Below are positions 32,001 through 34,915 of a stretch of DNA of 64,000 bases, piece after piece. Position 1 is the stretch's first letter; the number at the start of each line of letters is the position of its first letter. Made by a program: the position numbers and the translations under genes. Source of the stretch: Blautia sp. (GTDB lineage: Bacteria; Bacillota; Clostridia; Lachnospirales; Lachnospiraceae); contig JAFWGA010000042.1 of the NCBI GenBank assembly GCA_017515325.1, positions 1 through 64,000 of the forward strand. Direction: 5' to 3'. The notes under the pieces were generated by a model. The model saw only the letters and a list, made by a program, of their open reading frames with translations, was not told where the DNA came from and searched no databases.

Positions 32001-33650
32001 TCACTCATGCAGAGCGGCTGACAAGACCTGCCAGACCGTATCCCGCTCTGAACCCAGACGCCAACACGCGATACCGGCCAGACCGTATTTCCCGACCAGA
32101 AGCGCTTTCTCTCGTAGTGACTGCTCATCCTCCAGCCAAATTTCATATTTCGTCCCCCCATCATCCCAGGAGGCGTAAAGCTGCCCCAGGTCATTATTCC
32201 ACCATGGTTCAGCGTTTACCTGACTGATTAACTCAAAGGATTCCTCCATCCCCATAGAGCTGCTGTAGAGAGCATTCCCCTGGGTCCACCAGACTCTGGT
32301 ATAGAAAGGAATGGCATTGATCACTCTCTGAGGGTTGACCTCTGCAATGGCATCGATCACGCCCTGCTCTACCCAGGGCAGGGAGGCAACACTGCCGGCC
32401 GACTCAGAGTTGACATAATGTTCATCATAACCCATGATAATCAGGTAATCCACAACTCTGCCCTGCTCGCGGCGATTGTAATGTTCGGTATAAACAGAAG
32501 TGACAGGATCATCCACACTCAATACCAGGCCATACTTATGGGTTTCGATGGACAGCTCTCTAAGAAATTCGAGGAAATGGGGGATGGTGTCTTCATCAAG
32601 AGTTTCAAAATCCACATTAATGCCATCCAGGCCGACGGCGACCGCAGCGTCCACCAGTCCTCGGATCAGAGTCTGGCGGCTGCCGGTATGTCTTAAGGCT
32701 TCATAAATATTGCTCTCCGAGTTGATATTGTCCACCATGCCCCAGACCTTGAGCCCCATAGCATGAGCCCTTTCGACATAACTGCTCGAGGAAATATCCT
32801 GGAATTGTCCGGAGCTTCCTTCCAGGAAAAACCAGGTGGGAGTGATCACATTCACTCCTGTCATGTTTTCCGTCAGGCCTTCCAGGAAATCATTCGCATC
32901 CGGTACAGTCACCATATTCCAGACCATGTTTACCGGCTCTTCTGTTTTCAAATAATTGTAGGATTCCTCCTGAAAGGAGCGGGCATAGGAGTTCAGGCTC
33001 GGCTTCGTCACTTTGGATGCCTTCACATATCCGATATAACCGTCCCAGGTGGCAACCTGAAGCCAGTCGTCATAATCCTGCATAAAAAGAAGGGTATTTC
33101 CTTCAGAGACCTCTGTCAGAACCTTGGACTTGATCCCTCCCAGGACTCTGACAGCGGTCTTTTTCTTTACAGAGACCGTCATAAGATCTGTAAAACGGTT
33201 CTGCATACAGATCCTGGCAGGCTGAGAATAGACATAGCAATCCAGGTCGGTAAAGCGTTTCACATAATCCATCTTCAGAAAGACTTCGCCATCCCGCAGC
33301 CAGACATCCTGTCCCGGCTGGCTGGCTGCCGCACTGCGGGTCAGTGTGGAGGGAGTGGCATAAAGAACCTGTTGATTATCCTCGTCCCAATAGTAGCGGG
33401 CATTCAGGTATTCGTTCACCATGGCAAGGGGCAGATAGGCCTGACCGTCCCTGACCAGCCCGTTTACCTCCAGGATCTGGGTTCCCAGGACCAGCTTTGC
33501 TTCATCACCGTCTGCCGCCTGGTAGTATTCGTAGAGATCCGCCCGTTTGCTTGTCGGCATATAGCGAAGCACTGCATATGCCGCTGCTGCTGCCAGAAAC
33601 AGAACGAAAACAAGGATTCCTGCAGAAACAACAGGATTTCTTCTCTTCAT
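32001..33650 (-). CDS. Membrane-anchored GH18 cell-wall hydrolase with SH3 domain
   Basis: 549 residues. One N-terminal membrane helix (about 8-28) anchors the protein outside. Residues 50-160 resemble a stalk/copper-amine-oxidase-like domain, residues 160-220 a bacterial SH3 domain (AVRVLGGIKSKVL, DGYIGYVKASKV), and residues 240-549 a GH18 barrel with GLDGINVDFE (catalytic Glu) and MGYDEHY. Spore-cortex and wall enzymes such as SleL/YdhD share this design and cut N-acetylglucosaminyl bonds. First gene of the operon with the two GT-C-like proteins. The start follows AAAGGA. Confidence 0.85.
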   Translation of the reverse strand: MKRRNPVVSAGILVFVLFLAAAAAYAVLRYMPTSKRADLYEYYQAADGDEAKLVLGTQILEVNGLVRDGQAYLPLAMVNEYLNARYYWDEDNQQVLYATPSTLTRSAAASQPGQDVWLRDGEVFLKMDYVKRFTDLDCYVYSQPARICMQNRFTDLMTVSVKKKTAVRVLGGIKSKVLTEVSEGNTLLFMQDYDDWLQVATWDGYIGYVKASKVTKPSLNSYARSFQEESYNYLKTEEPVNMVWNMVTVPDANDFLEGLTENMTGVNVITPTWFFLEGSSGQFQDISSSSYVERAHAMGLKVWGMVDNINSESNIYEALRHTGSRQTLIRGLVDAAVAVGLDGINVDFETLDEDTIPHFLEFLRELSIETHKYGLVLSVDDPVTSVYTEHYNRREQGRVVDYLIIMGYDEHYVNSESAGSVASLPWVEQGVIDAIAEVNPQRVINAIPFYTRVWWTQGNALYSSSMGMEESFELISQVNAEPWWNNDLGQLYASWDDGGTKYEIWLEDEQSLREKALLVGKYGLAGIACWRLGSERDTVWQVLSAALHE

Positions 33651-33762
33651 AACCGTATTTCCTTTCCAAAATGATGGCGATCCGCTCGGCCGATTCCATC
33701 TGCTGCTGCCCGGAAACGTCTCCTCACTACTGACCTGCCTGTTTTTACATAATATCTATGGT

Positions 33763-33771
33763 ATTATAGCA
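33763..33771 (-). promoter_or_regulatory. Extended -10 promoter for the GH18 operon
   Basis: Minus strand TGC-TATAAT (TGn extended -10); no good -35. A GTGC-tttt-GCAC palindrome lies just upstream. It sits about 110 bp before the GH18 start, downstream of the RNA terminator at 33900. Confidence 0.55.
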
Positions 33772-33899
33772 TATTTTTCTGTGCTTTTGCACTGTGGGTT
33801 TTACCGAAATTCCACCTTACTGCATCTCTTTCTTTTTGCAGATAATCTTTCGGCCTCTACCGCCCCCTTTCGTGTCCCCACAGGTCGAGATCCTTAAAC

Positions 33900-33965
33900 A
33901 AAAAAAGCTTCTTCGTCCAGTCTGTACCGCGGGGAAAAAATGCCGGGTGGAACGAAGAAGCTTTT
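33900..33965. terminator. Strong long-stem terminator of the candidate RNA
   Basis: A perfect 14-bp stem (33903-33916 with 33952-33965, AAAAGCTTCTTCGT and complement) closes a 35-base loop. On the minus strand seven Ts follow, so it stops leftward transcription; the plus strand has only four. It separates the RNA gene from the GH18 operon promoter. Confidence 0.85.
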
Positions 33966-34257
33966 CCTATGCCTGGAACAGTTGCCAACTGCTTTCTGAC
34001 AGGCTTTGCAGGGACAACCGACCTTCATTTTTTACGTGATATTTTTTTCGTTTTTCCTCCTTTTGCGCAATTTTGGGTCCGTATTTCTAAGCTTTCTGAA
34101 CTCCCATGGTTTATGCTGCAAGGCTTTGGGGAATGTGGTGAGGCTTCTTTCAGGGCCCTTTGAGCCTGGCCGTACCCTAACGCGCTTGGCAGCCGACTAC
34201 TGTAAAAAACAGACAGCAAAACCAGTCTTAAAGGGATGTTTCCTGCCTGTTCTTTAT
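33900..34257 (-). ncRNA. Candidate structured RNA of about 355 nt, family unknown
   Basis: The 758-bp gap between the YfcE-like gene and the GH18 gene has no convincing ORF. Read on minus, it contains a consensus promoter (34264-34291) and a strong terminator about 355 nt on. Nested arms occur between them: GGCAG/CTGCC (34243-34247, 34188-34192) enclosing GACT/AGTC (34224-34227, 34195-34198) enclosing CTGT/ACAG; then GGGT/ACCC (34174-34177, 34075-34078) enclosing AGGCT/AGCCT; then GCCTG/CAGGC (34000-34004, 33971-33975) enclosing CAGTTG/CAACTG. A purine-rich open stretch with AAAGGAGG lies near 34065. I compared it with tmRNA, RNase P, SRP, T-box, TPP, SAM, FMN, lysine, cobalamin and ydaO consensus sequences from memory and found no match; 6S RNA cannot be excluded. 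Confidence 0.55.
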
Positions 34258-34263
34258 GCATGT

Positions 34264-34291
34264 ATTATACACAATCCGGAAGAAAAATCAA
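34264..34291 (-). promoter_or_regulatory. Strong promoter with AT-rich upstream region
   Basis: Minus strand TTGATT (34286-34291) and TATAAT (34264-34269), spacer 16 bp. The preceding 110 bp (34292-34408) are very AT-rich, like an UP element of stable-RNA promoters. Confidence 0.75.
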
Positions 34292-34408
34292 GTAATTTTT
34301 CTGATATTTTCTCGTATTATTCTATATTTATTCTTTATATGAAATTATTATGCCATTATTTGCTGTATTTTGCATATTTTTGTCTGTTTTTGGTTTTTAT
34401 CGTCCTTT

Positions 34409-34915
34409 TTACCAATTCTCGGACAAGCTGCAGGGAATTGCCTCTTCCCTGCCTGTTGCTTCATCCAGTTCCAGCACCAGATAAGAGCAGGCGTTGTAGC
34501 CCGGGGTTCCTCTGAGTGCCCCTGGGTTCAGAAGATGGATCCCCTCCTGCCATTCATCCACATACCTGTGAGAATGACCGAAGATGACGATATCCGCCTT
34601 TATCCTTCTGGCCTTTGCCAGAAGGCGGGAAGGGTTTCCTCCCCCTGCCCCGTACAGATGACCGTGGGTCATGAAGAAGCGCTTTCCCTCCAGCGTAAAA
34701 GAAACGGTTTCCGGCAGGTCTCCTCCCTGGTATACGTCACAGTTGCCCTGTACGATAAGGATAGGAATCATGCCCGCCATCTGTTCATAAGCCTCCTGAC
34801 GACCCTCAATATCTCCCGCGATCAGAATCCGGTCTATGCGTCCGGCTTCTTTGAGAGCCTGTCGAAAGTTTTCTTTACAGCCATGAATATCAGAACAGAT
34901 CAGAATTCTCTCCAT
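34409..34915 (-). CDS. YfcE/MJ0936-type phosphodiesterase
   Basis: 168 residues, metallophosphatase fold. Metal ligands in order: SDIHG (residues 8-12), AGDIEG, QGNCD, THGHLYG and FGHSHR. Such proteins hydrolyse small phosphodiesters; physiological substrates are unsettled. The second motif has AGDIEG where many have GD. The start follows AGGTGAAG, 4 bases after the aconitase-like gene, so translation is likely coupled. It is the last gene before the candidate RNA. Confidence 0.9.
   Translation of the reverse strand: MERILICSDIHGCKENFRQALKEAGRIDRILIAGDIEGRQEAYEQMAGMIPILIVQGNCDVYQGGDLPETVSFTLEGKRFFMTHGHLYGAGGGNPSRLLAKARRIKADIVIFGHSHRYVDEWQEGIHLLNPGALRGTPGYNACSYLVLELDEATGREEAIPCSLSENW

Follow-up and report, generated by a model that had tools for sequence, protein, structure and literature searches.

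A putative, strongly diverged counterpart of an unnamed Blautia RNA upstream of a GH18 glycoside hydrolase gene

The unit upstream of the GH18 gene

The window, i.e. the whole stretch of 64,000 nucleotides of Blautia DNA that was analysed, carries a GH18 glycoside hydrolase gene on its minus strand, which serves as the synteny anchor. The gap upstream of this gene (33651-34408) harbors, on the minus strand as well, a promoter, a 5′ hairpin, the Shine-Dalgarno (SD)-like sequence AAAGGAGG, the motif AAUAUCACG, and a long hairpin that is followed by seven Ts. The features are arranged as follows.

32001-33650, minus strand: GH18 glycoside hydrolase gene, synteny anchor (PF00704, E 4.5e-18)
33763-33773, minus strand: extended -10 sequence of GH18, TATGCTATAAT, with an exact TATAAT
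33898-33970, minus strand: long hairpin with T7 tail, terminator; UUCCCC...UACAGAC in the loop (33940-33920)
33984-34010, minus strand: possible small-ORF remnant TGCAAAGCCTGTCAGAAAGCAGTTGGC (relatives: TTGCAAAAGCCTGTCAGATTGCAGAGGGC), from weak blastn matches
34025-34042, minus strand: start of the small-protein frame, AUA UCA CGU AAA AAA UGA (ISRKK, early stop), read from the sequence
34035-34043, minus strand: AAUAUCACG, counterpart of the relatives' UAUAUCAC
34056-34063, minus strand: SD-like AAAGGAGG, counterpart of the relatives' GAAAGGAGG
34128-34136, minus strand: C-rich stretch ACAUUCCCC, read from the sequence; a comparably placed ACAAATTCCC stands in the consensus of 28 Blautia relatives
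34203-34256, minus strand: 5′ hairpin with a 14-bp stem (z -3.07) and ACAUCCC in the loop region (34239-34233)
34264-34291, minus strand: promoter TTGATT-16-TATAAT, 10 of 12 consensus positions

The unit is real: it runs from the promoter to a strong hairpin with a T7 tail ending at 33900, and it contains no conserved ORF. The leftward promoter, the terminator with seven Ts, the AAAGGAGG at 34063-34056, and a separate promoter of GH18 (the extended -10 at 33773-33763) had all been proposed in an earlier note on this DNA and were recovered here. Transcription of the unit is expected to start near 34257. The promoter match is modest by itself, because shuffled sequences also yield promoter-like sites (1.2 +/- 1.1, compared with four in 33600-34500). 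The terminator hairpin (33970-33898) reaches -29.7 kcal/mol when folded alone (z -4.78), and none of 200 shuffles is as good. It is absent from the terminator-scan listing, and the scan allows loops of 3-8 only.

The predicted 5′ stem consists of UAAAGAACAGGCAG (34256-34243) and CUGUCUGUUUUUUA (34216-34203), and 3 of 200 shuffles fold as well. The three nested stems that had been described for the unit (GGCAG/CTGCC, GACT/AGTC, and CTGT/ACAG) exist as strings, but the predicted fold prefers the UAAAGAACAGGCAG/CUGUCUGUUUUUUA pairing. By eye, several relatives possess a 5′ hairpin of different sequence at a comparable place. For the complete 363-nt RNA, the folding energy is unremarkable (z -1.05), with 19 of 100 shuffles folding equally well, and no competing antiterminator is seen in the folds of the window RNA. 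The earlier view of an independent RNA is supported in so far as the unit has its own promoter, apart from that of GH18, and stands where Blautia relatives carry a conserved RNA.

The upstream neighbor in the window (34409-34915) encodes a Metallophos_2 phosphoesterase according to Pfam, presumably a YfcE-like one. Several Blautia relatives have a reverse-strand gene as the upstream neighbor instead, which we take to resemble mecA.

The RNA and the small protein in relatives

The GH18 gene was found in every one of the 64 Blautia genomes, and an exact TATAAT lies 20-260 nt upstream of it in 55 of 62 loci, the window included. In other Lachnospiraceae, the GH18 promoter looks strongly conserved by eye, with a consensus of about TAATGACGRTRnnnAATAGTYTGNTATAAT that was read from several of the loci L121-L160, ~60-120 nt upstream of GH18. 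A model of the last 75 nt of the Blautia leader (R1), built from 42 sequences out of 61 Blautia loci, matches 50 of the 64 genus genomes at E ≤ 0.001, with one match each. In 48 of these 50, the match lies immediately ahead of GH18 on the contig of that gene; the other two (G013 and G019) have it on another contig, and the GH18 copy there is at a contig edge. The genome of the window (G000) belongs to the 14 that lack a match at this threshold. Among 250 genomes drawn evenly from the family, nine have a match at E ≤ 0.1, one of which is strong.

The promoter of the relatives (TTG...TATAAT, passing the filter in 43 of 61 loci) precedes the SD by 200-269 nt. Their leader contains GGUGUUUUCU, which is followed by GAAAGGAGG, a spacer, and UAUAUCAC. 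GGUGUUUUCU is found before the SD in 51 of 53 relatives and is missing in two, a CAGCRUUCCUGCUG hairpin is found in 34 of 53 and is missing in 19, and 51 of 61 Blautia loci have both the SD and the octamer UAUAUCAC. The predicted consensus structure of R1 comprises 12 pairs, three of them with two-sided changes. It also pairs UGUUUUCU with AGAAAGG, which hides part of the SD; covariation support for this pairing is lacking, since the two-sided changes are all located in the CAGC hairpin.

A further recurrent element is a hairpin with a C-rich loop. Of the 61 Blautia loci, 44 have YCCC in the loop of their strongest hairpin ahead of GH18, among them 13 of the 18 that lack the ORF described below; in a few loci (L021, L046), this is a different hairpin. 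A stricter loop motif is present in 37 of 62 loci (36 relatives and the window), and its CCC is unpaired in 30 of the 37. Stem identity in these hairpins averages 0.33-0.35 and that of the loop core 0.67; as the hairpins were chosen as the strongest, their pairing is given by construction and the shared loop motif is not, though the 37 were picked by that motif. As a MAFFT alignment of 44 hairpins (A3) misplaced the stems, the comparison uses stem and loop identities. A T-run follows the hairpin in 3 of 36 relatives by a loose test, so the transcript of the relatives may run on toward GH18.

In 43 of 61 relatives, the unit additionally encodes a small protein, which the earlier reading missed. 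The ORF shares a 66-residue profile and is located downstream of UAUAUCAC. It was also found in 32 of 44 further loci (L117-L160), giving 75 of 105 loci examined, some of which repeat one another (e.g. L119 and L138 repeat Blautia loci, L126 repeats L124, and L131 repeats L130). The protein is roughly 75-85 aa long; Pfam and NCBIfam gave no match for the single member searched. At the position of the AUA, 35 of the 41 Blautia ORF loci with the motif have AUA as the codon and five have AUG; the remaining one, L057, reads AUG by eye. The AUA is mostly positioned 16-19 nt after GGAGG in ORF loci, and an in-frame ACG between the SD and this codon is present in 31 of 41 ORF loci vs 1 of 10 ORF-less ones.

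Many relatives read NISRxKKKKK where the window reads ISRKK. The frame in the window stops after five codons, which renders the RNA noncoding there. The small-protein profile has no match in the gap, in line with the earlier claim that no ORF is present, and one query, run without a positive control, did not find the protein elsewhere in the genome. Downstream of the early stop follows a stretch that weakly resembles the relatives' KACQ region in another frame. In 9 of 29 loci, blastn matches the putative remnant at 33984-34010 to the equivalent place ahead of GH18, with E values of 0.15 to 6.3. As the unit encodes the small protein in 43 of 61 relatives, its absence from the window is probably a derived state.

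The profile has no match in 18 of the 61 Blautia loci, some of which, e.g. L029, are cut contigs. Eight ORF-less species form one clade in a GH18 tree of 35 rows (support 89/82, moderate); L015 and L033 fall outside of it, and L036 and L041 were left out of the tree. The window joins L005 and L081 (100/99), neither of which matches the profile; the branches concerned are long and may be drawn together for that reason. All eight species of the clade score 54-80 bits with R1 and were used in building it; the ORF-less L041 was not used and scores 76.5 bits. In the 15 pairs that compare one sub-clade of the eight with the other, the core has an identity of 0.72 vs 0.51 in single-base shuffles, which served as controls for all regions compared. 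The C-loop reaches 0.69 (vs 0.51), the 5′ hairpin region 0.63 (vs 0.53), and the 50 nt that follow the motif 0.50 (vs 0.50), the level of the shuffles. These identities suggest selection on the RNA even where the protein is missing. Since the clade keeps the RNA core, the RNA probably has a role of its own, and a functional RNA is favored over a mere leader by the core being kept in species without the ORF. As the ORF is present in other genera, we infer that it was lost rather than gained in the ORF-less Blautia.

Relationship of the window unit to the Blautia RNA

The unit in the window is placed just upstream of GH18 and on the same strand, as is the Blautia RNA. Its promoter-to-SD spacing of 203 nt falls within the range of the relatives, and the spacing from GGAGG to AUA is 13 nt, with 12-19 nt in 50 of 51 motif-bearing relatives and 5 nt in one. 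The SD and the octamer of the window deviate by one change in each half from GAAAGGAGG and UAUAUCAC, respectively. The pattern AGGAGGN{4,20}ATATCAC is present once in the 64-kb window, at the expected place and strand, vs 0.03 expected; the window had already been seen when the motif patterns were selected. Because AGGAGG...ATATCAC occurs twice in the whole genome and once in the reversed control, the count alone is not enriched. The 3′ hairpin with a C-rich loop is shared with the relatives as well: the loop sequence UUCCCCGCGGUACAGAC resembles UUCCCCUCAUACAGAACC of L019 and L033, and this loop pattern is seen a single time in the window, against an expectation of 0.14. In the predicted fold of the window hairpin, some Cs of the run are paired.

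The body of the RNA gives a different picture. GGUGUUUUCU has no match in the window within two changes, and the CAGCRUUCCUGCUG hairpin has none within three. The window body aligned to 43 Blautia leaders reaches a z of 0.87, with 41 of 200 shuffles attaining it, and eight relatives treated likewise reach 11-21. Compared with the sister L005, 340 of 1000 shuffles attain the similarity globally and 348 locally. The similarity to relatives around ACAUUCCCC is not significant, and an element similarity search in 60 relatives gave one 27-nt match in one genome that was taken as chance. With filters off, the best R1 match in the window is this locus (34101-34033, minus strand), at 15 bits and E 0.48. 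In the complete genome, R1 finds six other places at 16.7-21.3 bits and the window locus is not among them; the top place is inside an ORF, and all six are at chance level. In nhmmer searches with the A1 and A2 profiles, the locus ranks fifth and third in the window, respectively. Conservation in related genomes, which the earlier note had made a test of its proposal, is split: Blautia relatives carry a conserved RNA at this place, but the similarity of the window body to it does not exceed that of shuffles.

These results could be read as a lack of homology, with a chance promoter and an ordinary two-way terminator in a rearranged gap that happens to contain AGGAGG...ATATCAC. The body similarity at shuffle level, the chance R1 places that outscore the locus, the near-equal genomic motif counts, the frequency of promoter-like sites, and the 0.14 expectation of the loop pattern are all compatible with such a reading. 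It would require, however, that the motif, its strand, the promoter spacing, and the C-loop hairpin coincide at the syntenic place, and we regard it as rather unlikely. The unit in the window is probably the positional orthologue of the Blautia RNA that has diverged beyond alignment.

Possible function and origin

In Rfam searches, no family reaches the cut-off over the whole window, and the gap has no match at E ≤ 5 except patAB, which is on the opposite strand, scores 18.6 of 92 bits, and was taken as chance. None of 18 Blautia and 10 other loci matches a family at gathering scores. The earlier note had likewise matched the unit to no known riboswitch or housekeeping RNA. 6S RNA had been retained as the main alternative; it is an independent promoter-to-terminator RNA, a layout that fits the unit, and it varies much between organisms, so that a 6S RNA or another known class might be too diverged to score. 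The unit, however, has no match to RF00013, and the genome's own 6S RNA is located elsewhere (G000, contig C45, 65670-65848, 72 bits). Together with the empty Rfam results, this makes a diverged known class extremely improbable. A literature search by title found no paper dealing with this RNA. A term search of the main text of a study on candidate RNAs from human microbiomes (PMC8040213) found no mention of it, and the supplements of that study may list it.

Leaders of GH18 in other Lachnospiraceae occupy the same place, and many share the small-protein family and the UAUAUCAC octamer. At least 12 non-Blautia loci (L129, L130, L141, L142, L147, L149-L152, L155, L159, and L160) differ by an extra 5′ domain (~230-380 nt) that is not recognized in Blautia or the window. 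By eye, both sides of a long-range helix vary among these larger leaders (AAGUGCC/GGGCACUU, GGAGUGUC/GGACAUUCC, and GAAGAUAC/GUAUCUUC), and most of the 12 carry GUCUUACAGGC..GUGCCUGU. Rfam gave no match for the ten larger-leader loci searched.

With a probability of roughly 55%, the window harbors a divergent version of the unnamed Blautia RNA, one that is regulatory, was formerly dual-function, and perhaps acts via C-rich loops. The promoter would yield an RNA of ~358 nt that ends at the long hairpin. In most of the Blautia relatives examined, one transcript would comprise both the conserved RNA and the small-protein message. As a trans-acting regulatory RNA, it would most likely pair through ACAUCCC, ACAUUCCCC, and the UUCCCC of the 3′ hairpin with the SD regions of target messages; its own AAAGGAGG may be occupied by base pairs within the RNA. 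The analysis establishes the anatomy, the synteny, the conservation of the core across the genus in relatives, and its retention in ORF-less species, and we infer orthology, transcription, and action in trans for the window copy.

Two competing explanations need to be weighed against this regulatory RNA. The transcript could be a small-protein message only, with a leader that controls translation by pairing of the SD with UUUUCU, and the window copy would then be a decaying pseudogene whose promoter and terminator survive. The wide occurrence of the ORF within and beyond Blautia fits such a message, as do the UGUUUUCU-AGAAAGG pairing over part of the SD and, in the window, the stop after ISRKK and the unalignable body. 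That the ORF-less clade of eight as well as L033, L036, and L041 keep the core argues against it, as does the retention of the promoter, the SD, AAUAUCACG, and the strong hairpin with the C-rich loop in the window; we judge it unlikely. Alternatively, the RNA could be a cis-acting leader of GH18 in which the hairpin attenuates transcription from 34257 and some signal permits read-through to GH18. GH18 has its own -10 in the window, however, and an exact TATAAT in 55 of 62 loci, the window hairpin ends in a T7 tail, and the folds offer no antiterminator. A cis-acting leader is decidedly unlikely on these grounds, even though the RNA is found just upstream of GH18, most hairpins of the relatives lack a T-run, and a larger conserved leader occupies this place in other Lachnospiraceae.

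A regulatory and formerly dual-function RNA would have parallels in known systems. RNAIII/hld of Staphylococcus aureus is a dual-function small RNA. SR1/SR1P of Bacillus subtilis is described as another one (PMC8501984). The short transcript of the Blautia relatives resembles them in combining conserved RNA elements with a small ORF that has a strong SD; it differs in that no Rfam relation was found and in the ORF being broken in the window. Some known C-rich small RNAs of Gram-positive bacteria pair with SD regions. RsaA of S. aureus is described as acting on the SD of mgrA (PMC3961350). The likeness to RsaA lies in the C-rich stretches and is a short-motif resemblance only.

In a wider and more tentative reading, to which we give somewhat less than an even chance, the RNA upstream of GH18 is an uncatalogued structured one that extends across the Lachnospiraceae and was once the leader of a small protein. 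Several Blautia lineages, that of the window included, would have shed the ORF and turned it into a free-standing regulatory RNA. The same guarded estimate covers, jointly with the rest of this reading, the proposal that the small protein is read mostly from a non-AUG start in Blautia. As the protein mostly lacks an AUG at its conserved start place in this genus, the choice of the start codon would be testable. The genus Blautia is common in the human gut. If the wider reading is true, the conversion of a protein-coding message to a small RNA would have been caught at several stages. A conserved RNA that is kept where its ORF is missing offers a natural setting in which to test how regulatory RNAs arise from messages.
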